Virus record (IMG/VR): IMGVR_UViG_3300033146_002768
Location: 98,305-162,304 of that record
Length of the DNA: 64,000 bases
Reading direction: 5' to 3' (one strand)
Source: a virus
Every line of letters starts with the position of its first letter. Positions within the stretch are counted from its first letter, which is position 1. The translations under genes were made by a program, and so were the position numbers. Shown here piece by piece: positions 34,651-64,000 of the stretch. The notes beneath the pieces were generated by a model. It made no database searches. It saw only the letters and a program-made list of their open reading frames with translations, and was not told the DNA's origin.

Positions 34651-34788
34651 TTAAACCATTATTTCACATTCAGTTTCATCTATATATTTTTTTATAAATA
34701 AACCTAATCCAAATATAATAGCAGGAATAGATCCTGGTATTAATAATATTATAAGTAATGCTTTCATTAATGTTAATAGTATAATCAT
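34651..34788 (-). CDS. Small membrane protein (45 aa)
   Basis: ATG after GAAAGGAAAATAAA. Almost entirely one hydrophobic region (ALLIILLIPGSIPAIIFGLG) followed by a charged tail. It continues the minus operon after the gene at 34807. Confidence 0.5.
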   Translation of the reverse strand: MIILLTLMKALLIILLIPGSIPAIIFGLGLFIKKYIDETECEIMV

Positions 34789-34806
34789 TTTATTTTCCTT
34801 TCTAAT

Positions 34807-35178
34807 TTATTTTATAAAATCATGTGGTGGCATTTTATCTAACTTGACATATTTAAGAGTTGATTTTTTCATATCTATTGCTTTCATTAGTCTATGATAT
34901 CCATCTAATAAAATATCTTTAGGACCAACTATAACAGGATATTTAAGTTGAGCATTTCTTATTCTTATTATATGATTCTTTAAATCAAAGTATGTATTTA
35001 AAGTCCATTCTATTTTTGTATGAAGATCTATTTTATTTATAGATAGAGTTTTTACTGGAAACCCTTTAGTTGCATCAATTAAAGTTTGAACATACCATAC
35101 TTTATTACCTTCTACATAAGTATTTTTTATTTCTAATTTTTCATTTATATATAATTTATTTAAATTTAGTTTATTCAT
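34807..35178 (-). CDS. ParB/sulfiredoxin-fold-like protein (123 aa)
   Basis: The C-terminal third has PVIVGPKDILLDGYHRLMKA, which resembles the xDGxHRxxA motif of ParB/Srx-type domains; these bind DNA or hydrolyse nucleotides. The rest of the domain is diverged and short. The first 13 residues (MNKLNLNKLYINE) end in INE and might also be a capsid-targeting sequence, but less clearly than in neighbours. ATG overlaps the preceding stop as ATGA. Confidence 0.5.
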   Translation of the reverse strand: MNKLNLNKLYINEKLEIKNTYVEGNKVWYVQTLIDATKGFPVKTLSINKIDLHTKIEWTLNTYFDLKNHIIRIRNAQLKYPVIVGPKDILLDGYHRLMKAIDMKKSTLKYVKLDKMPPHDFIK

Positions 35179-35345
35179 TTCAATAACTCCCTTATTATCC
35201 TATAACAAACTAGTCCTACAGTATATGTTCTAATTATAATATAATCCACAAAATTAAATATTATACGCATACACTTTACTATCACTGTTAAGCTGAATAT
35301 TATAATCATGACTCCTATGAGATAACTAACTAAGAAGTCAAACAT
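35175..35345 (-). CDS. Small membrane protein (56 aa)
   Basis: Hydrophobic in the N-terminal half (FLVSYLIGVMIIIFSLTVIV). Starts 4 bases after the stop of the gene upstream and ends in an ATGA overlap with the gene at 35178, both typical of coupled genes. Ribosome binding site weak (AAGG). Confidence 0.5.
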   Translation of the reverse strand: MFDFLVSYLIGVMIIIFSLTVIVKCMRIIFNFVDYIIIRTYTVGLVCYRIIRELLK

Positions 35346-35349
35346 TATA

Positions 35350-35613
35350 TTACCTTGGTCTATTATTCATAGCTCTTCTCATTTGATCACCTTTAATTTT
35401 TTGATTATCCATAGCTTGTGATCTTTGTTCTGGAGTGCTGCTATTTGATGGTTTATTATTTCTAGAATCTTTAGATGCTGCTTTAATTCCAACATATCCA
35501 ACTAATAATGTTAAAGGAATTAATACACCTGCTGAGCTTTTCCAAACTTTTTTGACTTTATCCCAAATAGCGCCCTCATTTAATTTCATTAAATAATTAT
35601 CTAATATACTCAT
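35350..35613 (-). CDS. Small protein with T4-like capsid-targeting N-terminus (87 aa)
   Basis: MSILDNYLMKLNE ends in LNE at residues 11-13, followed by GAIWDKVKKVWKSSAG and a hydrophobic segment (VLIPLTLLVGYVGIKAA), then a polar, basic tail. The WDxVKKVW stretch recurs in the frameshifted gene at 36528-37044, so the two are related. Late-type promoter at 35633-35648. Confidence 0.65.
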   Translation of the reverse strand: MSILDNYLMKLNEGAIWDKVKKVWKSSAGVLIPLTLLVGYVGIKAASKDSRNNKPSNSSTPEQRSQAMDNQKIKGDQMRRAMNNRPR

Positions 35614-35632
35614 AATTTTATTCCTTGTTTTT

Positions 35633-35648
35633 ATTTTATATTTTGTTC
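35633..35648 (-). promoter_or_regulatory. Late-type promoter box
   Basis: Minus strand reads GAACAAAATATAAAAT, 20 nt before the ATG at 35613. Confidence 0.65.
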
Positions 35649-35683
35649 TATATTTTTGGTTCCATTATAAAATTATGCCAACG

Positions 35684-35728
35684 GCAAAAAAGCAGAGTGA
35701 TATATAATATTCACTCTGCTTTTTTTTG
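35684..35728. terminator. Bidirectional rho-independent terminator
   Basis: AAAAAAGCAGAGTGA / TCACTCTGCTTTTTT stem with a 10-nt AT loop. It ends the minus gene at 35731; the T-run on either strand allows both directions. Confidence 0.85.
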
Positions 35729-35730
35729 TA

Positions 35731-36177
35731 TTAAAATTCTGATTCTGGTGCTTGTTCATCACCACTACTAGTATTAGTATCTGCTTGTTCCTCATTAGGT
35801 AATTCTGATTCTGGTGCTTGTTCATCACCACTACTAGTATTAGTATCTGCTTGTTCCTCATTAGGTAATTCAGATATTGTTCTAGCTATACCTCTTGGCG
35901 GAATTGTTCCGCTTAGTTGAGGAGATCTTAATCCAAGAGCTTGTCCTATTTCTGCACTACATTCTTCATCGCAGTCACAAGATTTTTCTTGATCCCAGTC
36001 GACGTCAAATTGTTCTTCCATTTGAGCGAGCATTGCTTTTTCTTTTTCATCACCATTAATATAATGATCAACTAAGAAATCAATAATATTTATATCAAGA
36101 AGTCTAATTCTTTCTTTTAGTCTCATCCATTTTCCTTTTTCATACCAGTCATTTACTAATTCTTTACTTAATTCCAT
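35731..36177 (-). CDS. Acidic protein with 22-residue C-terminal duplication (148 aa)
   Basis: ATG at 36177 lies 5 nt after AAGGAG; a GTG six bases earlier overlaps that site. The N-terminal half is helical and charged, with a short CDCDEEC cluster near residue 70. The C-terminus carries two exact 22-residue repeats (ELPNEEQADTNTSSGDEQ as core), acidic and low in complexity, likely disordered. No family recognised. Confidence 0.6.
   Translation of the reverse strand: MELSKELVNDWYEKGKWMRLKERIRLLDINIIDFLVDHYINGDEKEKAMLAQMEEQFDVDWDQEKSCDCDEECSAEIGQALGLRSPQLSGTIPPRGIARTISELPNEEQADTNTSSGDEQAPESELPNEEQADTNTSSGDEQAPESEF
35735..35866. repeat. Exact 66-bp tandem duplication
   Basis: Two copies, 35735-35800 and 35801-35866, identical at every base. 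Being in frame and undiverged, it is recent, unlike the old repeats in the giant genes. Confidence 0.95.
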
Positions 36178-49906: not shown

Positions 49907-50782
49907 TTATACAACATTTTTTAAAGCTTTTAAAGTAGTCTCATCTTTATCCAAAACATGTTTCCAATATGATCTAATTGAATCTATATCATCAGATGCA
50001 GAAACTTTTCTATTGTAAGGAATCCCAATACTAAATGTATATATTTGTCCATTTCTAATTCTTGAATTAAACCATTTAACATTTATAGTAGACCCAGTTC
50101 TAGTTACAATTTTATTAGTTACTTCTCTTAAAAACTTTTGATATTTTTCAGTATCATTAACTACATTTTTATGAACTATATCTAGTTTAGTAATATCTTT
50201 TTCTTTTAAGAATTGTTTCCAATTTAATCCAATCATATCTTCTTCTGAATTATATCCAAGATCTTTTCCTAATTTATAACTACATGATTTTACTTTCATA
50301 TCATCATCAAGTATTAACATATAAATATTAGTATAATCAAAAAGTTCTTTTAAACTCAACTGAAGTTTTGTTTGTTCTATTTTATGTCGTTTATAAGCTT
50401 TGGAAACTTTTAATAAAACTTTAATTCTGTTTACTAATTTATCTGTATTGAAAGGTTTTAGAATAAAATCATAAGTATATTCATATTTTTCAAAACATTC
50501 ATATTCATAGTTTTTTCCAGACATAAATAAATAAGGAATATTAAATTCATTTTTAAATAATTCATCGGCTATTTCATTTCCTTTTAATTCTGAATTTAAT
50601 TCTATATCAATAATAAATAAATTAGCTTCTGTAATTGCTGAATGCATCATCATATCATTACAACGATTAAAACTATAAATATCTACATTGGGAATTTTTT
50701 TTTCTATCATCTCTTTCAACATAGTAGTTATTTCTTTATTGTCGTCTAATATAAATATTACTTGTTTTATAACATCACTCAT
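49907..50782 (-). CDS. Response-regulator receiver plus PAS protein (291 aa)
   Basis: Residues 1-120 form a receiver domain with every key residue: acidic pair Asp13-Asp14 (IFILDDN), phospho-acceptor Asp59 (LFIIDIEL), switch Ser88 (FMSGK) and Lys109 (ILKPF). Residues about 145-260 resemble a PAS domain (IYMLILDDDMKVKSCSYKLG, GLNWKQFLKE). There is no DNA-binding or kinase output domain. A PAS-containing receiver could take phosphate from a host kinase and bind a partner. It lies among fibre and lysis genes, an unusual place. The function is not known. Confidence 0.82.
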   Translation of the reverse strand: MSDVIKQVIFILDDNKEITTMLKEMIEKKIPNVDIYSFNRCNDMMMHSAITEANLFIIDIELNSELKGNEIADELFKNEFNIPYLFMSGKNYEYECFEKYEYTYDFILKPFNTDKLVNRIKVLLKVSKAYKRHKIEQTKLQLSLKELFDYTNIYMLILDDDMKVKSCSYKLGKDLGYNSEEDMIGLNWKQFLKEKDITKLDIVHKNVVNDTEKYQKFLREVTNKIVTRTGSTINVKWFNSRIRNGQIYTFSIGIPYNRKVSASDDIDSIRSYWKHVLDKDETTLKALKNVV

Positions 50783-51246: not shown

Positions 51247-51741
51247 TTATGATTGATCGTAAATGTTTAGTATATATGGCATAGAAACACTTGCATAACT
51301 ATGTCTTTTATCTTTAAGTTTTAATTTTCTAACATTTTTATTTAAACGATATGCAGCATGTACCCAACCACCAGGAAAATACTCAGCAATCAATTCTCGA
51401 TAATCTAAGTTAGTATGAATCCATTTAATAATATCAACTAACCTAATGTTTGAACTAACCGGTTCAAAATCGAGAGCTTCACCTCTAGTATGATTTGATT
51501 TTGGCGAACTACCAATAGCTTGACATAATTCTACTGATCTAAACCCTGAAGTAATTCTTATCATACCAAATTTTTCTCTTACTGGTTGAATAATATTTCC
51601 AGCGACTCTTTCAATGGATTGCCATTGTTGTTCATTAGGTATATTTCTGATACCTAATCTCATTGCAGTATCTGATTTTACAAATTCTCTATATTTAAAA
51701 TTAGGTGCCATTGGAAGTTTTTTATTTAAATCGCGTAACAT
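51247..51741 (-). CDS. M15-family peptidase, probable endolysin (164 aa)
   Basis: Zinc ligands of the M15 fold are present: SNHTRGEALDFE (His84, Asp91) and GGWVHAAY (His128), preceded by the conserved RITSGFRSVEL. Family members cut D-Ala-D-Ala or L-Ala-D-Glu bonds in peptidoglycan. No signal peptide or wall-binding domain, so release by a holin or similar protein is expected. ATG after AGGAGATATATT. Confidence 0.88.
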   Translation of the reverse strand: MLRDLNKKLPMAPNFKYREFVKSDTAMRLGIRNIPNEQQWQSIERVAGNIIQPVREKFGMIRITSGFRSVELCQAIGSSPKSNHTRGEALDFEPVSSNIRLVDIIKWIHTNLDYRELIAEYFPGGWVHAAYRLNKNVRKLKLKDKRHSYASVSMPYILNIYDQS

Positions 51742-51961: not shown

Positions 51962-52975
51962 TTATTTTTTTAACATTTCTTTGGTTACACTAAGATCTTT
52001 AATCTCCCAGGCATCCCAACAGAAATCTTTAATATAGTTATAAGGTAAATATCCATACCCATCTTGTCCCCAATTAGTTCCCCAAGAATTTTTAAATTTA
52101 AACATTCTTGTTTCTGGGTTCCATCCTACTAAACAAATAGCATGTCCACCATAACATTGATTAGGATCTTTTGGATATGGCACTACCCCATTATTTGTTG
52201 TATAAAATATTTCTAAATAACAACCAACACCAACAGGTAAAGGTCCATTATTTTTTAAAGAATTTATTATGTTTTCCGGAGTTTCAAGTCTTAAATATTC
52301 ACCACCTAATGCCCATTTGGAAACTAGAGTTGCCCAACGTTTTGGTTCACCAACATATGATTCATTGTACGGCCAAGCATTTTCAACTGGAACTCCAACT
52401 GTATTTAAAATTTTCATTGCAAATCTAATTGAGGTGCCTTCTTCATTTGGCCAGTAATCAATATCTTTACATTTGTAATACATCCATTGTTCAGATAGAT
52501 CATAGTTTTTCTTTTTTCTTTTATATTTTTTACCTTTAGAAATTTCTTCTAAATGCTCTTGTTGTTCTTGCCATTCTTTCATAGCTACAACAGCAAACCC
52601 AACACAAGACCCTAACGAACCTTGATTCTTTACTGGACTCATTTGTAAGGTATAATCAGTTGCATTAACATTAACAACTTCTCTTAAAATAGTTGAATTT
52701 AACTTTGGTGATTTATGGTCTCTGTCATCTAAATTATCTTTTACATAATTTAATATAAACCCTTCTGGAATTGATAGAATCTCTTTTTGAAAATCATCAG
52801 CTTGTTTCGCTGGATGTTTGGATATAATAGAATAATCTTTAATACCTAAAGCATCTAATTGTAAAGTTATATATTTTACTTGATTTTCAAAACATATAAA
52901 TTCAGTAGGGGTTCTTACTAATTTTTGATTAATAACTACTAAAAAACCAGCATCATTTATTTTTATTTGTATCAT
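51962..52975 (-). CDS. Papain-like (C1A) cysteine protease (337 aa)
   Basis: All four papain active-site elements are present: Gln118 and Cys124 in VKNQGSLGSCVGFA, His278 in YGGHAICLVGW, and Asn296 in FKNSWGTNWGQDGYGYL. The N-terminal ~60 residues match the small neighbour at 51753. No signal peptide is evident. It could process virion proteins, act on host proteins or attack cell-wall peptides during entry; the tail operon favours a virion or lysis role. Confidence 0.85.
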   Translation of the reverse strand: MIQIKINDAGFLVVINQKLVRTPTEFICFENQVKYITLQLDALGIKDYSIISKHPAKQADDFQKEILSIPEGFILNYVKDNLDDRDHKSPKLNSTILREVVNVNATDYTLQMSPVKNQGSLGSCVGFAVVAMKEWQEQQEHLEEISKGKKYKRKKKNYDLSEQWMYYKCKDIDYWPNEEGTSIRFAMKILNTVGVPVENAWPYNESYVGEPKRWATLVSKWALGGEYLRLETPENIINSLKNNGPLPVGVGCYLEIFYTTNNGVVPYPKDPNQCYGGHAICLVGWNPETRMFKFKNSWGTNWGQDGYGYLPYNYIKDFCWDAWEIKDLSVTKEMLKK

Positions 52976-53389: not shown

Positions 53390-54220
53390 TCACTTTATAT
53401 CGTTTATTAATAAACCAAAGTTGTGAAAACATGCTTGACAAATGTTATTATTTTTTTCACAAGGAAATATATTATGTGTAAATAATATTTTTAAAACTAA
53501 TTTATGTAAAGGCGAAGAATCAATATCATTTGTATTACCAGCACAACAACGATATATTTTATTTTCAATTAAATCAAGCCTTGGTACTAATATAGATGAA
53601 TTACAAATTCTTTGTGATTTTTTAATTAAATCTTTATTTAAAATATTACTAAAATGTTTTATTTTATCTTTACTATTTGAATCGATATTTAAATTAATAA
53701 TTTCATATAATAATTTAATGTCACTTATAGTTAATATTAAATCTTTATCATTTCCCACATAAAATTTAATAGTAAAATTAATATGATCATTTGTTTTTAT
53801 GAATGATTTTATATATTTTAAATTTTGTTTATGAACTATAATAATATAATCAATCGGAATATCATTATCTTTTATTACATTAATTTTTGTTGGTTCATTT
53901 ATTTCTGAAATTACATGGTATGAAATATTATTAATATATGATCTAAATATTTCATGATAATTATTTTCTAAAAATGTACCATTTGTTGCTATCTCACAAG
54001 GATGATTTAATTCATTGAATATTTCTTGTAAATAATCTTTAGATAATAAACCTGGTTCACCTCCAGATAATGAGATTAATATATTAGGATTATATGTTTG
54101 AAGTAAATTAATATAGTTTTTAACTTTTTCAATTGGAGATGTTTTATTATCAACATTATCGCAATAGTTACATGACCAGTTACATTTATTTGTTATTTTT
54201 AATACTACTGATTCTATCAT
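53390..54220 (-). CDS. Radical SAM enzyme, family A copy 1 (276 aa)
   Basis: CNWSCNYC is the CX3CX2C motif binding the SAM [4Fe-4S] cluster (Cys13, 17, 20), followed by SLSGGEPGLL (about 50-60) and CEIATNGTF. A Cys-rich C-terminus (YRCCAG and CQACFHN) may bind a second cluster, as in SPASM/Twitch enzymes. It is closely similar to the next gene (54217) and more distantly to those at 57613 and 60195. The start overlaps the upstream stop as ATGA. Substrate unknown. Confidence 0.85.
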   Translation of the reverse strand: MIESVVLKITNKCNWSCNYCDNVDNKTSPIEKVKNYINLLQTYNPNILISLSGGEPGLLSKDYLQEIFNELNHPCEIATNGTFLENNYHEIFRSYINNISYHVISEINEPTKINVIKDNDIPIDYIIIVHKQNLKYIKSFIKTNDHINFTIKFYVGNDKDLILTISDIKLLYEIINLNIDSNSKDKIKHFSNILNKDLIKKSQRICNSSILVPRLDLIENKIYRCCAGNTNDIDSSPLHKLVLKILFTHNIFPCEKNNNICQACFHNFGLLINDIK

Positions 54221-55053
54221 ATTTTAGACCTACAATTCCATGCTCCATTGTAACATGAAGAGCATATTATATTAGTTTTATTTTTATGTGTAAACAAATC
54301 GTTTTTAATAAGTAATCTTAAATTTATTTTGTTAAATGTTATATTATCAATTGTATTAGAAAGTCCAGCACAACATCTAAATATCTTTTCTTTTATTAAA
54401 TCTAATCTAGGCATGTATGATATAGTATTGCAATATTCTTGAGCTTTAATAATATTATTATAATTATCTATATTACTAAAGTATTTTATTCTTTCTTTAT
54501 AATCATCAATAATATTCATATCACATATACCTTCATAATATAAAGTTGCAATACGTGATTGTGTTAATACATAATTTTGATCTGCTCCAATATAAAATCT
54601 CGGACTAAATTGTATATGACTATTTCTTTGAATGAATGGAATCACTTGGTTTATGTTTCTATTATGGATGACAAAAATATATTGTATTGGGAGATCAGTT
54701 TCTATATTATCATATATTGTATTGTCATCATTTATCTCAGGAGTTACATGATACCAAAATTCTTTTAGTTTCGATTTAAATAAGTTATGATAATCTTTTT
54801 CAAAAAATGTACCATTCGTTGCTATCTCACAAGGATTATTAATATGTTTAAATACTTGTTCTAAATACTTCTCAGATAACATACCTGGCTCACCACCTGA
54901 TAATGAAATTGTTATATATGGATTTAATGATTGTAATGAATTAATACATTCTATTAATTTATCAAGTTCTACATTTTGAGAATCAACATTATCACAATAT
55001 GAACAATCCCAATTACATTGATTTGTTACTTTTATTACCATAGTATTAATCAT
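54217..55053 (-). CDS. Radical SAM enzyme, family A copy 2 (278 aa)
   Basis: I take ATG at 55053, an ATGA overlap with the preceding stop, because it aligns with the start of its sister gene; an ATG 18 bases earlier has no ribosome binding site. CNWDCSYC (13, 17, 20), SLSGGEPGML, CEIATNGTF, and the C-terminal FRCCAG and ICSSCYN mirror copy 1. Same order, size and spacing indicate tandem duplication. Confidence 0.85.
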   Translation of the reverse strand: MINTMVIKVTNQCNWDCSYCDNVDSQNVELDKLIECINSLQSLNPYITISLSGGEPGMLSEKYLEQVFKHINNPCEIATNGTFFEKDYHNLFKSKLKEFWYHVTPEINDDNTIYDNIETDLPIQYIFVIHNRNINQVIPFIQRNSHIQFSPRFYIGADQNYVLTQSRIATLYYEGICDMNIIDDYKERIKYFSNIDNYNNIIKAQEYCNTISYMPRLDLIKEKIFRCCAGLSNTIDNITFNKINLRLLIKNDLFTHKNKTNIICSSCYNGAWNCRSKI

Positions 55054-56072
55054 AAATTTTCTTGTCTCCATTCATAAATTTTTGTTAGTGTAATAGGATC
55101 AGCATTAGTAATATCCTTAGAGCTAACATCTTCATAACTATTACAGACTTTACAATGTTCATGATCAGATAAATTTAAATAAGCATTAGAACTATATACT
55201 TCATCTAATTTCTGAATATTTAAATTTCCTATCTTTGTTTTAAAATATATATCACCAGAGCATCCACACCCTATCATAATACCTGTTGATGAAATAAAAT
55301 TTTTAGTAAGAAAGTATTGACACATCTTAGGTCTTTCTTTAACATTAGCAGTTAATTTAAAATTTTCAGACTCTAATACTTCATTACTAATTAATGATCT
55401 ACGACTACAAAAATCATCTCTTGGAAATAACATAGAATTTGTCATTCGACTAATCTGAAATAATAACTTATAAGTTTCAGATGTTATTAGTAATTTATGA
55501 TGTATTTTTGTTTTTGTATAAATAGGAATGTTTAAGTTTATATTTATATTATTATCAATTAAATATTTTAAATTATTTTTGAAATTTAAATAAAAGGTTT
55601 TTGTACTTCTGGCAAACCTTTCAAATTCAGAAAAATGTAAACCATAACAACTAATGCCTAACCAACTTATTTTTTTTAATGACAAGAGTTTATCTAAATA
55701 TTTATTATTATCAATTGTTAAATTTGTATAAAAATGATATCCATCAACATTGGGATGATTTTCTAATATATCTAATTTCTCAATAAATGTTTTATCTAAA
55801 AAAACTTCGCCATTCATTGGAGTTAATGAAAAATAAGTAAATCCAAAATCACAACATTGATTCAATATATCTTTAAACATATCAATTGACATACTCATTG
55901 ACTTCTCTGTTTTCTTTTCACCTCTTTCTTTTTGATTACAATGGATACAATTTAAATTACATATATTGATAGATTCGATTGCAATATAGTTATAAAACAT
56001 ATTTCCATTTTTAGTAAATGATTTATATCTAATATTCTTTTCTATATTAGGAAATTTTGAGAATGTAATCAT
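55050..56072 (-). CDS. Radical SAM enzyme with C-terminal Cys cluster (340 aa)
   Basis: CNLNCIHC (Cys38, 42, 45), then TPMNGEVFLD in place of a GGEP motif, and C-terminal GCGCSGDIYF plus HCKVCNSY, which suggest an auxiliary iron-sulphur cluster. The arrangement recalls SPASM-type peptide or cofactor-maturing enzymes. It differs from family A. Both starts and stops overlap neighbours. Confidence 0.82.
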   Translation of the reverse strand: MITFSKFPNIEKNIRYKSFTKNGNMFYNYIAIESINICNLNCIHCNQKERGEKKTEKSMSMSIDMFKDILNQCCDFGFTYFSLTPMNGEVFLDKTFIEKLDILENHPNVDGYHFYTNLTIDNNKYLDKLLSLKKISWLGISCYGLHFSEFERFARSTKTFYLNFKNNLKYLIDNNININLNIPIYTKTKIHHKLLITSETYKLLFQISRMTNSMLFPRDDFCSRRSLISNEVLESENFKLTANVKERPKMCQYFLTKNFISSTGIMIGCGCSGDIYFKTKIGNLNIQKLDEVYSSNAYLNLSDHEHCKVCNSYEDVSSKDITNADPITLTKIYEWRQENL

Positions 56073-57616
56073 TAGTCTTCCTTGTAGTAAGTATTTTTAT
56101 TTATTACTAATAAATCTATTTTATTATTATCTAACATTTCAAATGCATCTTCATACCAGTTAATAATTGTCTGTCCTTTTATATTAAAGCTTGTATTTAA
56201 TAAACAAGGGATACCAGTTCTTTCTTTGAATTTTTTTAATAACTTATATATAAAAATATTATCTTTTGTAATTGTTTGGATTCGTGTTGTATTGTCTATA
56301 TGTTTAACTGCTTTAAAAAGATCAGTTTTATTATACCCCACAATATTCATATAAGGAAAATCTCCTTCTATATCAAAATATTTTGAAAGGTCATCTTTCA
56401 AAATCATAATACCAAACGGTCTAAATTCTTCTCTATGTTTTACTCTTTTATTTAAAATATCTTTCATTTCTTTATTTCTTGGATCACATATTATAGATCT
56501 ATTACCTAAAGATCTTGGTCCAATTTCTATTTCACCTTGAATTAAACCAACTATTTTTTTGTTAATTAATTCATCAATAAGTTTATCTAAGTTTAATGGT
56601 TCATTAGGTTTATTTGAATTTCCATTTAATTCTGGGCCAGTTATTGGAATAGAAATTTTATTCTTATAACAATTTAGTGCAGCACCTAAACATTGTCCAA
56701 CATCACTTGGATAAGGAGTAAAATGATAATGTTCAAACATACCAGATTTTATTAATTTATAATTTAACATAACATTCAAAAAAGAACCTCCGGATAAACA
56801 TATGTTATTACTTAAGTATGAATATTTTTTAATTAAAAGAATAATCCTTTTAATCCATTCAACTTGAAATGTATAAGAAAAATCTTTTAAGTTTTTAACA
56901 CGTTTAACAATATAAGTATCAACTATATCGATTATTCTTTTATTTATTTTATCACCCATTATAAAAGGATTACTATTTAATATTAAATTAATTATATTTA
57001 AATATTTATCATTATATTTTCCATAAGAACAATATGCCATAAATTTACCAGCTACATGTCCCTTATGATTAATCCCTTCAACATATTCTGGATTTATTTT
57101 TTCTAAAACTTTAAATGATACTTTGGAAAAATGATTACCTAAAGGAAATTCAATTTTATCAATTTCTTTAATATTATTATCTTTACCATGAAAAATTCCA
57201 CCATGATTAAATTCTATTGAACCATCACTTCCTCCGTCTAAACTAATAATTAAAGAATCATTAAAATTGCTTGTATAGTATGAACTAGCTCCATGACATA
57301 AATGGTGAGAATAATATTTAACTTCTTTATATTTAATTTTTCCATTTAAAAAATATTTATCAAATAAATGTTTACTAAAAAATCTTTTTTCTTTTGCCAT
57401 TAAATAATTTGGAGAAACACAAATATAATCAAAATCATTTTCTACTTCTATTATTTTTTCAATGAATTTATTTATTATATCTTCTGTCCAATGTTTAACT
57501 TCAAAGTATTTAATCTTAAAATATTTTTCTGCCTCAAAAAAATATTTGACTTTATTATCATTTATAATAACAAACCCACAATCATGAGGAACTAAATGTA
57601 CGCCTAATATTTTCAT
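56072..57616 (-). CDS. NodU/CmcH-type carbamoyltransferase 1 (514 aa)
   Basis: The family motifs are: GVHLVPHDCGFVI at the N-terminus, YYSHHLCHGASSYYTS, SLDGGSDGS (ATP/carbamate-site region), EIGPRSLGNRSIICDPR and FRPFGIMI, with LLNTSFNIKGQTI near the end. These enzymes move the carbamoyl group from carbamoyl phosphate, via carbamoyl-AMP, to a hydroxyl of a sugar or natural product. It is somewhat shorter than NodU. Start overlaps the upstream radical SAM stop as ATGA. Confidence 0.88.
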   Translation of the reverse strand: MKILGVHLVPHDCGFVIINDNKVKYFFEAEKYFKIKYFEVKHWTEDIINKFIEKIIEVENDFDYICVSPNYLMAKEKRFFSKHLFDKYFLNGKIKYKEVKYYSHHLCHGASSYYTSNFNDSLIISLDGGSDGSIEFNHGGIFHGKDNNIKEIDKIEFPLGNHFSKVSFKVLEKINPEYVEGINHKGHVAGKFMAYCSYGKYNDKYLNIINLILNSNPFIMGDKINKRIIDIVDTYIVKRVKNLKDFSYTFQVEWIKRIILLIKKYSYLSNNICLSGGSFLNVMLNYKLIKSGMFEHYHFTPYPSDVGQCLGAALNCYKNKISIPITGPELNGNSNKPNEPLNLDKLIDELINKKIVGLIQGEIEIGPRSLGNRSIICDPRNKEMKDILNKRVKHREEFRPFGIMILKDDLSKYFDIEGDFPYMNIVGYNKTDLFKAVKHIDNTTRIQTITKDNIFIYKLLKKFKERTGIPCLLNTSFNIKGQTIINWYEDAFEMLDNNKIDLLVINKNTYYKED

Positions 57617-58494
57617 ATATATCCTCGTTCTCTTATATTACACCAGTAACTATTAAAATATCTTAAACAATCATTACATCTTATACAACTCAAATCATTA
57701 GCCGCAGAAGGGAATAAAATAAAATTCATCATCTTTAGCATATTACTTTCATTCAATTTAGCTCTATCAGAATATGTCCAACTAATAGGACATCTTAATA
57801 TCTCTTCATTTACAAAATCAAGTGTGGGGTGTATTTGAGAATTACCACATGCTTGTCTATGTAATGATAATGTTTTTTCGCTTGAACTAAATGCTTTCTT
57901 TAACATATCAAAGGTATCAGGTAATACATTATCTAACTTATAAACAGAATCATATAATTCTTTAAACTGAGATCTAGTTATTATATAATCTAAATCTCCA
58001 TCAAACTCTCCCTTTTGTAAAAATGGAATTAAGTTAAATTTCATTAAAGGATATCTCTGACATTTATTTAAAACATCTTTATAATTCTTTGCATGAACTG
58101 GTTGAAATATTTGTATTTTTTCATCGCAAATATCATGTGGTATATCTTCCTTAACTTCTATATTAGGATGATACCCAACCCAATCAATTTTATCATACCA
58201 TCTATCAAAATAACCTTTATCAATAAATAGTCCATTAGTGTTAACTCTTATTTTATGACAATCACATACTTCTTCAAATATGTATTCAAGAATATCAATA
58301 TCAACTAATCCAGGTTCTCCGCCTGTTAATGTAAACACAGGAAATAGATCATCTCTACCATTAACCATTGGAAAATATTTTTCAATTAATGATTTATTAG
58401 CTTGTTTTGGATTTACTAATTGTCCTATATCACAATAGAAGCAATCCTTATCACATTCTTCAGTTAGAAATAAAACTAGTCTATGAGCTTTCAT
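57613..58494 (-). CDS. Radical SAM enzyme, family A copy 3 (293 aa)
   Basis: CDKDCFYC (Cys14, 18, 21), TLTGGEPGLVD, KIRVNTNGLFID; C-terminal RCPISW and CIRCNDCLRYFNSYWC. It shares with the gene at 60195 the run TEE/Q-C-xxx-C-xYCDIGxL. It starts 14 bases inside the end of the upstream gene. Confidence 0.83.
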   Translation of the reverse strand: MKAHRLVLFLTEECDKDCFYCDIGQLVNPKQANKSLIEKYFPMVNGRDDLFPVFTLTGGEPGLVDIDILEYIFEEVCDCHKIRVNTNGLFIDKGYFDRWYDKIDWVGYHPNIEVKEDIPHDICDEKIQIFQPVHAKNYKDVLNKCQRYPLMKFNLIPFLQKGEFDGDLDYIITRSQFKELYDSVYKLDNVLPDTFDMLKKAFSSSEKTLSLHRQACGNSQIHPTLDFVNEEILRCPISWTYSDRAKLNESNMLKMMNFILFPSAANDLSCIRCNDCLRYFNSYWCNIRERGYI

Positions 58495-59461
58495 TTATCC
58501 ATCCTGGTATAAAATTAAATACTTTTATACACTTTTCTTTATTTGTTAATAAATCTAAATGACTCCAGAAAAATTTAGGTGTCGAATGTTCATATGCACA
58601 ATGTTTTGAAGTGCATAAAATTTTATCTGTTTTATTTATTATATCTTTATATGAATAATCTAAATTATAATTTCTATTTCTTATACTAAAACAAGGATTT
58701 ATAGAACCATCAACTTCAATTAATAAACTTCTAGTATAGGCTAAACATATAAACCCTTTAAAATTTCTATTATAAATTCTTTTATGTTTTAAAATGTATT
58801 TATCATTTTTAAAATAAACACTCTTAATAAAATCAGTTCTTAATTCTACATCATCTTTTATATCAGGATCTATTTTAGTACTTTCATATAGATTATCTCT
58901 AACAGTTTTATATACTAATAAAAAATCTGAATCATCCTTAAAAATATCTTTCATTTTATTATACTCTGAAATACATTCTTTTGATTCAATCATAAATGCT
59001 AATTCTATTGGGATATTTAAATCTCTTAATTGTTTACATTTATATATAAACTTATTAAAATTAATAAATTTTTTATGATAACTAACATACATATTAAAAT
59101 CTATATCATTCATTATATGAGCAAGTGTTTTATAAGTATGTAAATTAGCAGTAGCATTAGTTAGTAAACATAACGATGCTTTTTTAAATTTTAATACAGA
59201 GGATAAATTTTTCATGAATGGTATAAAATAAGGATATATAGTAGGTTCACCACCTGTAATTAAAATATCTAATTCTATATTGTTATCAATATCTTCAATA
59301 AAATTTAAAAATTTATTAGTTATATCATAGTCGGTTTTAATTGAGTTATCTCTTATACCACAATAATCACATTTATAATTACAATTCAATGTAAGGTGAT
59401 ATGTTATTCTTAACTTTTTAGATTCTGCATCACCATAGTATATTAAATTATCAGTTCTCAC
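58481..59461 (-). CDS. Radical SAM enzyme, family B (326 aa)
   Basis: CNYKCDYC (Cys27, 31, 34) after a 26-residue lead, then ILITGGEPTIYP, and C-terminal SINPCFSIR plus CTSKHCAYEH. The GGEPT form differs from family A. GTG start after GGAAG. Closer to the common SPASM-like layout than the other genes here. Confidence 0.82.
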   Translation of the reverse strand: MRTDNLIYYGDAESKKLRITYHLTLNCNYKCDYCGIRDNSIKTDYDITNKFLNFIEDIDNNIELDILITGGEPTIYPYFIPFMKNLSSVLKFKKASLCLLTNATANLHTYKTLAHIMNDIDFNMYVSYHKKFINFNKFIYKCKQLRDLNIPIELAFMIESKECISEYNKMKDIFKDDSDFLLVYKTVRDNLYESTKIDPDIKDDVELRTDFIKSVYFKNDKYILKHKRIYNRNFKGFICLAYTRSLLIEVDGSINPCFSIRNRNYNLDYSYKDIINKTDKILCTSKHCAYEHSTPKFFWSHLDLLTNKEKCIKVFNFIPGWINESS

Positions 59462-59471
59462 AATATCTTCC

Positions 59472-60191
59472 TTAATATAAATTTAGAATAGGTTTTTCTT
59501 TTTTATAATTTCCAAGAGCTTCTTTCCAAGTTTTAGATATATGATGTTTTGTTGTTATTACTTTATTCTTTTTAGAGTTATCTAATATGCCACAAAATTT
59601 ACATATCTTTTTTTTCTGTTGTAATATAGTTGATTGATTAATATCTTTCATTCTTTTAATTCCTATATCAAATCCAAATACTCTATCAATTGTTGCAGCA
59701 ACTCCACAAACATAAAATCCATATCTATTAAATCCTAGTCCACAATCAATTTCATTTATACATATTTCTTTATAATTATTTTTGATTTTAGAATATTCAT
59801 CGTTATCAACAGGCGCTTCAAAGAAATTAAAAAAAGGATCGGGTCCTAATTTCTTATTAGTATTTTCTAAAATAATATTTTTAGAACGATGTAATATATT
59901 TAATCTACTTGATTCTTTTACTCCATTTGTTATAACTGTAATATTTGAAGATGTATCGTTTAACATTGTTATGATATATATTAAATCATTTCTCAATGTA
60001 GGTTCGCCACCCAATAAATTTATATTAGTCCATTTAAAATTTAAATCATACGTTTCAATAACAAACTTCTCTAATTGTTTTATTGACATCTCTTCATCAC
60101 TCGGAGCTAAATCTTTACTACATGCTCTATTACAATTAAAGCAAGATAAATTACATTTTATTAATAATTCTATTTCAATATTAGTTAACAT
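59472..60191 (-). CDS. Radical SAM enzyme, short form (239 aa)
   Basis: CNLSCFNC (Cys13, 17, 20), INLLGGEPTLRND, VITNGV, then GFYVCGVAAT and KICKFCGI near the end. Short for the family, possibly a trimmed barrel. Spacing of four bases to the upstream gene. Confidence 0.8.
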   Translation of the reverse strand: MLTNIEIELLIKCNLSCFNCNRACSKDLAPSDEEMSIKQLEKFVIETYDLNFKWTNINLLGGEPTLRNDLIYIITMLNDTSSNITVITNGVKESSRLNILHRSKNIILENTNKKLGPDPFFNFFEAPVDNDEYSKIKNNYKEICINEIDCGLGFNRYGFYVCGVAATIDRVFGFDIGIKRMKDINQSTILQQKKKICKFCGILDNSKKNKVITTKHHISKTWKEALGNYKKEKPILNLY

Positions 60192-60194
60192 TAT

Positions 60195-60995
60195 TTATAC
60201 CTTTATATTATTAATAAAATGAAAGCAGGTGTTACATACATCACTATTATCAAATTTTATTTTTAACATGTCATTTAAATTATTGATTGTTAAATCTATA
60301 CTTGCTGAATTTGTATGACTACAAACACATTTTTTAATTTTACCATAAACTAAATCTATAGAAAAATCATTACTTTTCTCTCGACAAATTTTTCGATATT
60401 TTTCTTGTTTATTCCATATCATTAAAATTTTAAAAAATAAGTTTTTAGAATAAATAGTCGCATTTTTATTTTTTATAATTTTATAAATAGTTTGATAATC
60501 ATCATGATTCAATTCAAATTTAGATTGTTTTAATTTAGAATCATATGGAGATATTTCAAAAGTTATATCTTTATATCTATTTAAAAAATCATCTAACAAA
60601 TAAATATTTTGTTTATGAACTGGAAAATGATAATTTATATTTTTAATATCATATGGATTAAATTCTTCATTTATTTCAGATACTGGATGACACATTATAG
60701 TGTTGATGTATTCTTTATATTTCTTATAATATCTTTGAATAAATAATCCATTTGTATTAACATGTATATTTTTAGTTTGTAATATTTCAAATATATAATC
60801 TAAAATAGTTTCACTTAATAATCCTATTTCTCCACCAGTTAAAACAACTTTATCTATACTAGATTTATCTCTAATAATTGGTAGGTATTTTTTTAAATAT
60901 ATTAACGGAGGTTTATTGCGTTTCTTTAAATTTCCTATATCACAATATTTACATTTTCTATTACATTGTTCAGTTAAGAAAAGTGTTAGTTTCAT
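60195..60995 (-). CDS. Radical SAM enzyme, family A copy 4 (266 aa)
   Basis: CNRKCKYC (Cys11, 15, 18), VLTGGEIGLLS, HVNTNGLFIQ, with C-terminal KKCVCSH and DVCNTCFHF. The usual Pro of GGEP is Ile here. Otherwise it follows the gene at 57613. ATGA overlap with the SGNH gene upstream. Confidence 0.8.
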   Translation of the reverse strand: MKLTLFLTEQCNRKCKYCDIGNLKKRNKPPLIYLKKYLPIIRDKSSIDKVVLTGGEIGLLSETILDYIFEILQTKNIHVNTNGLFIQRYYKKYKEYINTIMCHPVSEINEEFNPYDIKNINYHFPVHKQNIYLLDDFLNRYKDITFEISPYDSKLKQSKFELNHDDYQTIYKIIKNKNATIYSKNLFFKILMIWNKQEKYRKICREKSNDFSIDLVYGKIKKCVCSHTNSASIDLTINNLNDMLKIKFDNSDVCNTCFHFINNIKV

Positions 60996-61642
60996 AATAA
61001 ATTTACCTTTTTCATTTCATCATATATTACATTTGCCCAATAATAATGACCTTCTTCAAGAGGATGATCCCACGGTGCCTTTGGAAATTTTCTTAATCTA
61101 TAAAACATATCACAATTTTTTTTATTAAAATCTAAGTAAAATTTTAAATTAATATTCTTCATAAAAATATTATCATCTTCTATATTATTAGATAAAGCAT
61201 TAAAGAAAAAATATTTTATATTTCTAGACTTTAAAAATTCTTGAAATAAAAATAATTTATAACTAAATTCAATATCGGTAGTTTTTTTATCATATATATA
61301 TTTATAAAATGATTTAGCTTTTAATTTAATTATTGAATCATTGGTACTTGTTTCATGAGAGTTATGAAGTATTTGTTTAAATTTACCTTTATACATTATT
61401 TCAAATCTATCTGGGTTTGACCAACCAATTATAATAATTAATTTTTTAGGATTATTATTTAAAATCCATTCAGTTGTTGTTCTTATTATTCTATTATTAC
61501 TACTCCCAGATTTAGCATCATTCAATATTATTGTATTTATTTTTTTTGATAAAATACCTGGCCAGCAAAATTTTTCTCTATGAAGATTTTCTTCTTTTAA
61601 TTCTTCACCATAAGTAAAACTACAACCATTAACATATATCAT
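60992..61642 (-). CDS. SGNH-hydrolase-like protein (216 aa)
   Basis: Opens with YVNGCSFTYGEEL, the block I nucleophile Ser in an NGxSxTxG context, then SGSSNNRIIRTT, IIIGWSNPDR and a C-terminal HPLEEGHYYWA with the His. Such proteins are esterases or acyl/sugar O-transferases; phage forms of this type are of unknown role. Lies between the carbamoyltransferase and radical SAM genes, so it may deacylate or acylate the same product. Confidence 0.7.
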   Translation of the reverse strand: MIYVNGCSFTYGEELKEENLHREKFCWPGILSKKINTIILNDAKSGSSNNRIIRTTTEWILNNNPKKLIIIIGWSNPDRFEIMYKGKFKQILHNSHETSTNDSIIKLKAKSFYKYIYDKKTTDIEFSYKLFLFQEFLKSRNIKYFFFNALSNNIEDDNIFMKNINLKFYLDFNKKNCDMFYRLRKFPKAPWDHPLEEGHYYWANVIYDEMKKVNLL

Positions 61643-61656
61643 TATTAAATTCCTTA

Positions 61657-61758
61657 TTTATAAATAAATGGATCTTTTTTTTTAGATTTTCTTTTTTTAA
61701 TTATATATTTAATTTCTAAAATAAAGTCTATCCATAATTCTATTATTTTTTTAATCAT
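61657..61758 (-). CDS. Possible very small basic protein (33 aa)
   Basis: Overlaps the end of the second carbamoyltransferase gene and fills the only gap in the operon. Lys/Ile-rich (IIELWIDFILEIKYIIKKRK). No good ribosome binding site; could be leader or chance. Confidence 0.3.
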
Positions 61759-63208
61759 GATTAAATACCTTTATATTGTGGTCTATTCCAAATTGGATTG
61801 CATCCGATGAATTATTTACTAATGGTTGTCCTTTAACATTTAAACTAGTATTTAATAACATTGGGCATCCAGTCTTTTTATAAAATTCATTTATTAAATT
61901 CCAATAACCAGGACTTTCTTTTTTATTAACTGTATGAACTCTTGATGTATTATCAACATGAACTATAGCAGGAAATTTATCAGGATACTTACATGTCATT
62001 ACATATTGCATGTAAGGACTTTTAGAAATAATCATATTAAAATATTCAGCGGCATATTCCTCTAATATAGATGGTGAAAAAGGTCGAAACTTTTGACGAT
62101 GTTTAATGTCGTTAATTTTATCTTTTATATTATTCCCACGAGGATCAGCTAATAAAGATCTATTACCAAATGCTCTTGGTCCAAATTCTGCTCGACCATT
62201 TGCAACTCCAACAATATTACCTTTTAACAATTCTTCTAATAAAGATTTAACTGGATAATCACCTTTAATATTATGACCAAGATAAGGTCCTTTCCAATTT
62301 AATCTTCCATTAATTAATGAAGCGGCTCCTATAGAAGACCCCGAATCACCTGGATTAGGCATTATCCAAATGTCATTAAAATATTTAGGTATTAATCTAT
62401 TAGCTAAACAATTTAAAGCAACTCCGCCACAATAAACTAAATTTTTTGAATTAGATATATGTTTAGATTGTTTAATAATATTTTCAATTACTTCTTCTGT
62501 AACTTGTTGAATTGAAGCTGCTATATCTTTTAGATAAGCTCCTTGTAGATAATCATTTGGAATTCCTTTATGACAATTTATTTTAAGTTTAAAAAATTTA
62601 TCTTTAATAAAATCCTTTTTAATTTTATCAGCATAAGATGGATACCCCCAACCAGCCATTCCCATTAAAATATATTCATCTTCATTTGGTTTTAAACCAC
62701 ATCGTTGAGAAAATGCTGAATATAATATTCCTAATGAATGAGGATAATTAACTTTTTTCAATAATTTTAAATCATCTTTATTTCCTTCCCATATACTTAA
62801 AGTAGACCATTCACCAATAGAATCTATACAAACAATAACAGCATTATCAAATGGAGAAGTAAAATAACTTGCAGCAGCATGACATTTATGATGATCCAAA
62901 TATTTAATTGGAGTTTTAGGAAAATCAAATTGTTTAAAATAATTATGAAATATATTTTTAGTTTGAAATACTTCATTATATTGACCAGCAAATAACTGTC
63001 TTGTTTTCTTTAAATATGGTTTTTCATAAAAAGCTATAACATCAGGAGTACCAAATCTTAAAGATTCATTTAATATTTCTTGGTTTAAATATAGATCATT
63101 TTTTATACCAGAATATCGTTCTGAATGAGCAGCAAATAATATTTCATTGTCGTCTATTAATGCAATTGATGCATCATGACTTAGTGCATTTATTCCTAAT
63201 ACTTTCAT
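61751..63208 (-). CDS. NodU/CmcH-type carbamoyltransferase 2 (485 aa)
   Basis: The motifs are more classical than in copy 1: GINALSHDASIALI, YLDHHKCHAAASYFTS, CIDSIGEWST, GVALNCLANR, EFGPRAFGNRSLLADPR, KFRPFSPSIL, and LLNTSLNVKGQPLV. Substrate probably a sugar or polyol hydroxyl. It differs throughout from the copy at 56072, so this is not a recent duplication. ATGA overlap with the gene upstream. Confidence 0.9.
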   Translation of the reverse strand: MKVLGINALSHDASIALIDDNEILFAAHSERYSGIKNDLYLNQEILNESLRFGTPDVIAFYEKPYLKKTRQLFAGQYNEVFQTKNIFHNYFKQFDFPKTPIKYLDHHKCHAAASYFTSPFDNAVIVCIDSIGEWSTLSIWEGNKDDLKLLKKVNYPHSLGILYSAFSQRCGLKPNEDEYILMGMAGWGYPSYADKIKKDFIKDKFFKLKINCHKGIPNDYLQGAYLKDIAASIQQVTEEVIENIIKQSKHISNSKNLVYCGGVALNCLANRLIPKYFNDIWIMPNPGDSGSSIGAASLINGRLNWKGPYLGHNIKGDYPVKSLLEELLKGNIVGVANGRAEFGPRAFGNRSLLADPRGNNIKDKINDIKHRQKFRPFSPSILEEYAAEYFNMIISKSPYMQYVMTCKYPDKFPAIVHVDNTSRVHTVNKKESPGYWNLINEFYKKTGCPMLLNTSLNVKGQPLVNNSSDAIQFGIDHNIKVFNHD

Positions 63209-64000
63209 AATATATCCATTATTAATTCATGTTCATTATAAACTAATTTATCGAGTATATCTTCTTGAGATAAATTTATGATTTGTTCTTTGTTATCATC
63301 AATGTTAAACAGTTTTAAATAGTAATGGAGTCCATCATTAAACGTTTTATTTTTTGGAGAGTAATATACAGGTTTATTTAAATAACAAAACTCAAATATT
63401 AACTTACCTATATTCTCCACAAAAATTCCTGTACATACTTCGATCCATCTTTGATATATGTATGAATTACAACCATGAGGTAATAACTTATCATTACTAA
63501 TATTTAAATGAGTTAAGTCACACCAGCTTATAATTTTTTGTTCATTAAAATAACTTTTGAATGTCCCCATATGTGCTTGTTTATTTTCATTTATATCTCT
63601 ACTAGTAACTAAATCTTTATCAATACTAGTTAATGACTTTTCAATATGATTTAATCTATTAATACTAAATTTATGATAATGAATAATAAACTTATCTACA
63701 TATTGTTCGAATCGTTTATTGCTTGGGTTACCTAGAAGTGTTATTTGATCACAAAATATATGATTCTTAATATCAAACATATCATCAATATAATTATTAT
63801 GATATGAAATATATAATTGAGAAGTATCTAATAATATTAAGTGGTTACAATATATTTTAAAATTTGTCTTCTTTAAAAATCTTAATGTATTTGTTGTTGT
63901 GATAATAGTATCCGATCTCACTTCATCAGTTACTAATCTATCAACAAATTTTTGTGGAGAATCTTGAAGATTCTTTTTAATTTGATTCATCAATGATTTA
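63205..64000 (-). CDS. Unrecognised protein, start may lie beyond the window (at least 262 aa)
   Basis: The frame stays open to the right edge; TTG 63993 and ATG 63990 are the only starts visible, with no clear ribosome binding site, so the true start may be beyond 64000. The C-terminal part (GKLIFEFCYLNKPVYYSPKN) faintly recalls the acceptor-side end of GT-B glycosyltransferases. It joins the operon through an ATGA overlap. Function unknown. Confidence 0.6.
   Translation of the reverse strand, partial: KSLMNQIKKNLQDSPQKFVDRLVTDEVRSDTIITTTNTLRFLKKTNFKIYCNHLILLDTSQLYISYHNNYIDDMFDIKNHIFCDQITLLGNPSNKRFEQYVDKFIIHYHKFSINRLNHIEKSLTSIDKDLVTSRDINENKQAHMGTFKSYFNEQKIISWCDLTHLNISNDKLLPHGCNSYIYQRWIEVCTGIFVENIGKLIFEFCYLNKPVYYSPKNKTFNDGLHYYLKLFNIDDNKEQIINLSQEDILDKLVYNEHELIMDIL

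Follow-up and report, generated by a model that had tools for sequence, protein, structure and literature searches.

A radical SAM and carbamoyltransferase gene run in an uncultured phage is the variable end of a longer cluster that may build and mature a cysteine-rich fibre

Why would a phage carry, in one compact run, seven radical S-adenosylmethionine (rSAM) enzymes, two carbamoyltransferases and an SGNH-like protein? We addressed this question at positions 53390-64000 of a 64,000-base window (the whole stretch of DNA analysed here, G000:98305-162304, within the virus record IMGVR_UViG_3300033146_002768 of 207,111 bases). The window genes are the downstream, variable half of a longer phage gene cluster. 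The operon is truncated by the window end, and in the fetched flanking sequence its open reading frames (ORFs) continue in the same direction for ~13 kb upstream, to about G000:175306; the whole co-directional run comprises 27 genes, 12 of them rSAMs, over 23.6 kb, with all gaps at or below 127 bases. The part outside the window adds five rSAM genes and two proteins that carry a cysteine-rich array. These array fibres and the SPASM-type rSAMs that adjoin them are the most informative genes of the locus; lying just outside the window, they were invisible to the initial annotation. Our preferred reading, to which we assign a probability of about 60%, is that the run of interest forms the distal, variable end of a 27-gene operon whose products build and mature a cysteine-rich fibre of an unusual kind. 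Upstream of the window the co-directional run contains, in record coordinates:

G000:162429-163319: g296
G000:163316-163888: NodB-like protein, weak match
G000:163863-164435: methyltransferase (PF13578)
G000:164432-165256: c2, GT-B glycosyltransferase by predicted fold
G000:165275-166174: c13, glycosyltransferase-like protein
G000:166199-166792: c1, conserved protein
G000:166920-168032 and 168025-169062: two rSAMs
G000:169070-169630 and 169643-170218: two Cys-array fibre proteins
G000:170222-171370: R1, SPASM rSAM
G000:171381-172376: R3, rSAM
G000:172376-172804: small protein of 142 residues
G000:172820-173935: R0, PapB-like SPASM rSAM
G000:173946-174470 and 174482-175306: two tail-fibre-like genes, the first matched by phrog_19602

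In the two cysteine-rich proteins of the operon the array reads, for example, CDCNYSCTCNCNYACTCQCNYACTC. A consensus of C-T-C-(N/D)-C-N-Y, with 0 or 1 residue separating the units, emerges from 328 units in 41 array proteins. The cysteines are fixed by the definition of the unit and the informative positions are those between them, which are T in 242, N or D in 288, N in 295 and Y in 284 of the 328 units, both synonymous codons being used. Array genes start 3 bases downstream of R1, in a single co-directional run. Their products are 125-534 residues long, mostly with fibre-like N-termini and with S74 chaperones or stubs. Peptidase_S74 is fused to the array in L014, L053 and L034 and is encoded by the following gene in L044 and L042; the cysteine-rich proteins are therefore marked as being of the tail-fibre type. 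The fibre protein is probably present in the virion. At L023:4721-7282 and L032:7389-9443, three or four array proteins stand in tandem with differing N-termini and a nearly identical array, as if receptor-binding parts were diversifying on a fixed tip. Another variant of the array, CPCNCNF, is repeated about a dozen times from L140:7883 and L142:7831 onward.

The association of the array with rSAM genes was assayed in both directions. Firstly, a degenerate DNA pattern for CNCNYxCTC, built without rSAM information, matched 57 stretches of viral contigs. Matches inside true arrays have rSAM genes densely clustered about them, and chance matches do not. At least three rSAMs were present in 24 of the 25 records with an in-frame array (counting L039, whose array is cut by the contig edge) and in none of the 19 records with a chance match (Fisher p 1e-11), and rSAM matches reached 7.7 per 100 kb in the former versus 0.65 in the latter. 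When the comparison was restricted to records of 20-82 kb, the fractions were 15/16 and 0/9. In bacterial and archaeal genomes (257 Gb) the pattern gave eight hits, roughly what is expected by chance according to our estimate, none of them in a Cys-rich ORF or near an rSAM gene. Searching phage records with the array protein by tblastn gave no matches with the low-complexity filter on, and a single-sequence search with R1 retrieved no relatives; alignment-based profiles were needed. Secondly, profiles of R0 and R1 retrieved 93 viral contigs, 61 of which contain c1. An rSAM gene lies directly ahead of the block preceding c1 in 59 of these 61, and the block contains a Cys-rich ORF (at least 7 Cys in 30 residues) in 55 of the 61, versus 26 of 1062 background ORFs, arrays being among these. 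Among contigs with an R0 homologue (at least 34% identity) that the pattern scan had not seen, 14 of 25 contain Cys-rich ORFs, one of which (L163) is a minus-strand hit and not array-like. This association, like the genes, the array and the gene order, is read directly from the sequences and recurs in diverse phages.

We also considered that loci without CNY arrays might represent a different system. This was rejected, since most of the loci inspected have a Cys-rich variant as the gene between R1 and c1: in L194, and similarly in L159, CICNSDCTCNAVCNCHNDCGCNYSDERLK runs into S74-like sequence, and L146 encodes CHSNCHSNC. L185 and L121 are exceptions, with R1 but no Cys-rich gene after it.

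Which reactions could these enzymes carry out? R0 matches the models of the ranthipeptide maturase PapB (1e-40) and of the SCIFF maturase (5e-26). The solved structure nearest to both R0 and R1 is 5WGG, which we take to be the SCIFF maturase CteB, and the QhpD model matches R0 at 2.4e-17 and R1 at 6e-12. R1 has a full SPASM cysteine pattern, with C17-C21-C24 plus C260, C278, C322, C325, C330, C333 and C360 invariant, and R0 is similar. By sequence, both enzymes belong to the SPASM-type rSAMs and have thioether-forming peptide maturases as their nearest relatives. CteB and PapB act on peptides; QhpD, an rSAM-SPASM enzyme, introduces thioether cross-links within an entire protein.

We propose that R0 and R1, together with R3, act on the C-T-C-N/D-C-N-Y segment of the adjoining fibre proteins. 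The position of the array and its conservation make it a probable substrate of the rSAMs. The products would most likely be thioether cross-links from the Cys sulphurs to nearby Thr, Asn or Asp, as made by CteB, PapB or QhpD, an analogy to which we give somewhat less than even odds. Such cross-links would harden the tip of the tail fibre, which in many relatives would be folded with the help of the Peptidase_S74 chaperone. The distal cassette (the smaller rSAMs, the GT-B glycosyltransferases, the NodB-like protein and the methyltransferase) would make a phage-specific decoration and attach it to the fibre; that a glycan is attached there is conceivable, at odds a little short of one in two. 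In this phage the two carbamoyltransferases and the SGNH-like protein would join in, and the decoration would then probably be O-carbamoylated.

Several observations weigh against this proposal. The S74 domain of this phage is no more than a short stub (SDIRLKYDIEYL) without a Pfam hit. R0 scores below the NCBIfam cut-offs (139.9 versus 340 bits for PapB, 91.6 versus 425 for the SCIFF maturase), and R1 likewise falls far below both. We saw no recognition domain (RRE) fused to the maturases; Pfam detected no PqqD in example c3 and c5 proteins or in the 142-residue protein, a profile search being weak for RREs, and the small partner proteins matched no relevant Pfam family. L015, which encodes an array protein (L015:4720-5475), is without any rSAM gene in its 43.8-kb fragment. 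The counts given above are not independent, several contigs being nearly the same, and array loci supplied most of the sequences behind the models of c1 and R0/R1. In the Campylobacter phage CP220, which has the same array, 11 proteins were identified from a virion gel and the array protein is not among them (PMC2853527). The chemistry is a prediction from the genes, and metal binding or disulphide formation would be other possible roles for the alternating cysteines.

The last of these points can be extended to an array that forms a metal-binding, Fe-S-binding or disulphide-bonded fibre tip, the rSAMs doing other work or helping to load clusters. A Cys at each second position suits metal binding and the composition is metallothionein-like, yet the residues that separate the cysteines (Asn, Thr and Tyr) show conservation like that of a substrate motif, dedicated SPASM maturases adjoin the array, and the array variant CICNSDCTCNAVCNCHNDCGCNYS retains the same enzymes; we hold this explanation to be quite unlikely. 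The resemblance of the maturases to enzymes of ribosomally synthesized and post-translationally modified peptides (RiPPs) raises a further alternative, in which the Cys-rich region would be excised to yield a free modified peptide, such as a bacteriocin or a signal, and the remainder would be a carrier. It would be in keeping with the papain-like peptidase directly downstream of the operon and with a HINT-like fusion in two relatives (L190, L200). Against it stand precursors of 125-534 residues of mostly fibre-like build, with S74 chaperones or stubs, and array-bearing operons in which no recurring transporter or leader peptidase was seen; release of a peptide appears very improbable. In the two fusions (L190:11794-12465 and L200:11826-12485), a Cys-rich stretch and a HINT-like self-processing domain form one protein, with an R1-type rSAM nearby (only L190 was scanned), possibly a self-cleaving version of the substrate.

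How, then, do the window genes relate to the maturation of a fibre? In related phages the core order is R0, a small protein, R3/R1 (or R2), the Cys-rich fibre, c1, a GT-B glycosyltransferase and a variable rSAM/sugar cassette. Two forms recur: that of this phage, with fibre, R0, small protein, R3, R1, array, c1, c2 and variable cassette, and a second, with R5, R0, c5, R2, c3, array, c1, c6, c2, R4, c7, R6 and R7. A second contig matches our operon gene by gene, with 51-81% identity for most genes, in the order R0-R3-R1-array-r370-c1-c13-c2-NodB-g307-r266-r293-r284-r276. Of the seven rSAMs in the window it has four (r266, r293, r284 and r276), order kept; the two carbamoyltransferases, the SGNH-like gene, r239 and r340 are without a match in it. 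In contig 3300033143_004799 the R1 homologue (L176:8089-9126) is broken across several reading frames, by an assembly error or as a decaying gene.

None of 6 related operons has a carbamoyltransferase gene, and of 25 array-bearing records a single one does, at a long distance from the cluster. Arrays without a carbamoyltransferase are also seen in a phage whose portal protein is 88% identical. We thus rejected the carbamoyltransferases and seven rSAMs as a conserved unit, the closest operons being without carbamoyltransferases. The run in the window is rather a mixture of four rSAMs that belong to a conserved operon and carbamoyltransferases that are accessory, because the second contig keeps the former and lacks the latter. 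The initial annotation had inferred a pathway towards a carbamoylated small molecule, sugar, nucleoside or virion glycan, with conservation of the gene set outside this genome as a check. We still favour modification of a virion component, and the carbamoyltransferases, the GT-B proteins and the NodB-like protein support chemistry on sugars or glycans; carbamoylation itself is not part of the core, and what is conserved elsewhere is the set of four rSAMs in a syntenic operon, from which the carbamoyltransferases are missing. Dozens of uncultured phages share the cluster, and cultured Campylobacter phages hold part of it. Searching with the portal gene gave close relatives; among named phages, only distant PBS1/AR9-like matches were found.

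All ten genes first described in the run were found on the minus strand at their coordinates. They were said to be separated by overlaps or gaps of 0-10 bases; overlaps and small gaps there are, with gaps reaching 22 bases and, in one case, 108 bases (61642 to 61751). The CX3CX2C motif, read in each gene, is intact in all seven rSAMs as had been claimed, and is followed by GGE in six of them, the exception being 55050-56072. Pfam Radical_SAM (PF04055) scores above its cut-off in five of the seven, and 57613-58494 and 59472-60191 are below the cut-off yet match at E 1e-4 to 3e-5. Both carbamoyltransferases are complete, as proposed: CT1 and CT2 each have a Kae1-like N-terminal and a YrdC-like C-terminal domain (PF02543, PF16861; lowest E 8e-55) and match solved enzymes. 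The SGNH-like gene corresponds to DUF6071 (PF19547, E 2e-16). The GC content of the run is 23%, that of the remaining window 30% and that of the array genes 34%. The window part of the operon reads as follows:

53390-54220, minus strand: r276, rSAM of paralogue group A2 and final gene of the operon; PF04055 E 2.6e-7; CX3CX2C at residue 13; syntenic homologue with 56% identity in contig 3300033143_004799
54217-55071, minus strand: r284, rSAM of paralogue group A2; PF04055 E 5.9e-8; syntenic homologue 52%
55050-56072, minus strand: r340, accessory rSAM with a weak SPASM match; PF04055 E 8.7e-10; PF13186 E 5.5e-4, slightly under cut-off; no counterpart in L070
56072-57616, minus strand: CT1, accessory NodU/TobZ-type O-carbamoyltransferase; PF16861 E 7e-54; PF02543 E 4.5e-23; matches solved 7xb6 and TobZ; missing in relatives
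57613-58494, minus strand: r293, rSAM of paralogue group A2; CX3CX2C at residue 14; PF04055 E 1.4e-4; 81% identical homologue at the equivalent position in another array operon
58481-59461, minus strand: r326, STM4011-like rSAM with a GTG start; PF04055 E 7e-9; NF038073 E 6.9e-15, 55 bits, under the cut-off of 200
59472-60191, minus strand: r239, short accessory rSAM; CX3CX2C at residue 13; PF04055 E 3e-5
60195-60995, minus strand: r266, rSAM of paralogue group A2; PF04055 E 2.9e-11; syntenic homologues 59% (L070) and 42% (L073)
60992-61642, minus strand: accessory SGNH-like protein (DUF6071); PF19547 E 2.4e-16
61751-63208, minus strand: CT2, accessory NodU/TobZ-type O-carbamoyltransferase; PF16861 E 7.7e-55; PF02543 E 9e-46; matches solved novobiocin and GdmN carbamoyltransferases
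63205-64000, minus strand: g307 (L001:11509-12432), 307 residues, running past the window end; weak alignment to glycosyltransferase-like proteins

The assignment of c2 comes from a model. A c2 relative is predicted by AlphaFold2 (pTM 0.89) to have a two-domain GT-B fold, for which Foldseek gave as best hits the O-GlcNAc transferase XcOGT (E 3e-4) and PimA and PimB' (probability 1.00), with TM-scores of only 0.40-0.55. No Pfam or PDB sequence match was found for c2, the GT-B likeness being seen in the predicted fold only, and c1 gave a confident model with no fold match in the PDB.

These distal genes invite an explanation in which the product of the cassette is a small molecule or host-surface glycan, for serotype conversion or superinfection exclusion, the rSAMs acting on sugars and only the operon being shared with fibre genes. 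The distal genes do resemble sugar chemistry (carbamoyltransferases, GT-B, a weak NodB-like match); related operons also carry DegT aminotransferase, epimerase-like and amidinotransferase-like genes, the rSAM module of CP220 has an amidinotransferase and nucleotide-sugar transferases, and the authors of a pelagimyophage study suggested host O-chain modification by glycosyltransferases (PMC7029224). This explanation, which could hold for the distal genes alone, leaves two facts unaccounted for: R0 and R1 flank the Cys-rich fibre gene in most related contigs, and they resemble peptide maturases, not sugar rSAMs. As an account of the whole operon we find it unlikely.

The initial annotation mentioned that T4-related Campylobacter phages carry several rSAM genes, and indeed CP220 and CPt10 have 11 and 12 (PMC2853527). 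Phages of the CP220 group hold homologues of R1 (34%) and R0 (37%). CPT_0180 of CP220 has six array units, and the R1 homologue CPT_0184 lies four genes further on; the R0 homologue is CPT_0023. A 21-bp repeat was noted in 2010 as the sole intragenic repeat common to CP220 and CPt10 (PMC2853527); in CPT_0180 it encodes CDCNYCT, which is the same array. At the level of sequence, the link between the Campylobacter phages and this operon is real homology. A module swapped between CP220 and CPt10 contains five rSAMs with the amidinotransferase and nucleotide-sugar transferases, and resembles the variable cassette of this phage. Another kind of Cys-rich repeat protein, NCxxCxxC, is encoded at L067:16839-17207 (CP220). 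The CP220 paper proposed that rSAM genes confer a metabolic advantage at low oxygen (PMC2853527), and on that account the operon would be an unrelated pile-up of auxiliary metabolic genes. The oxygen sensitivity of rSAM enzymes speaks for such a role; the fixed gene order and the link to the Cys array across diverse phages speak against it, and we give it hardly any credence.

Other genes of this phage lie around the operon. Directly downstream are, on the minus strand, a papain-family cysteine protease (PF00112, E 4.5e-18; window 51962-52975), which could be a processing protease, and an M15 peptidase (window 51247-51741). A phage-encoded response-regulator receiver domain (PF00072, E 2e-9) is found at window 49907-50782, also on the minus strand, the rest of the protein being PAS-like by eye. 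Four more rSAM genes lie outside the operon (G000:6739-8067, 34717-35862, 60353-61393 and 95319-96062), the last of which is PA0069-like (E 8e-28, under the family cut-off).

The proposed maturation of a cysteine-rich fibre gives a concrete explanation, amenable to testing, of why Campylobacter phages carry a dozen rSAM genes, which has been a question since 2010. The system is present in a cultured phage, CP220, where the array occurs together with both SPASM rSAMs. If the array is a substrate, rSAM peptide chemistry reaches virus structural proteins; the fibre tip of many uncultured phages would then be cross-linked and decorated, and missed by sequence-based host prediction. The operon would perhaps define a new kind of virion maturation, a generalization that we put forward tentatively: dedicated rSAMs cross-link Cys motifs of the fibre, while an exchangeable rSAM/sugar cassette gives each phage its own decoration, like bacterial O-antigen clusters.

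How does this compare with known systems? The nearest in sequence are the ranthipeptide/SCIFF systems of CteB and PapB, in which a SPASM-type rSAM also adjoins a Cys-rich gene; the role of that gene product as a substrate is inferred here. Unlike their short peptide precursors with a leader, the protein found here is a fibre-like, multi-repeat one, often with an S74 chaperone, and no fused RRE, leader protease or exporter was seen; extra rSAMs and glycosyltransferases are present, and scores are under the family cut-offs. QhpD, whose model R0 and R1 match, shares a whole-protein target, but that target, the gamma subunit of quinohemoprotein amine dehydrogenase, belongs to a periplasmic bacterial enzyme and not to a phage structure, and its cysteine spacing is different. 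The carbamoyltransferases of cyanophages and pelagiphages are of the same family (26-39% identity to those here); they are annotated singly, in a few records at 2-3 places, whereas two copies stand here inside an rSAM operon. Tail fibres with Peptidase_S74, the endosialidase chaperone, resemble the array proteins of several relatives, which end in or precede S74; to our knowledge, a Cys array with dedicated rSAM genes is not part of known S74 fibre types. The rSAM module of CP220/CPt10 is akin in its R0/R1 homologues, its array (CPT_0180) and its swapped five-rSAM module, and differs in that the parts lie in three separate places in CP220, which has no carbamoyltransferase; its publication gives a gene list and the 21-bp repeat only, and never tied the array to the enzymes (PMC2853527). 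We found no description of a phage operon pairing peptide-maturase-like rSAMs with a repeated Cys fibre in the open-licence literature that was searched. The enzyme families are already known; within that literature, the new part is their pairing with a repeated cysteine-rich fibre.

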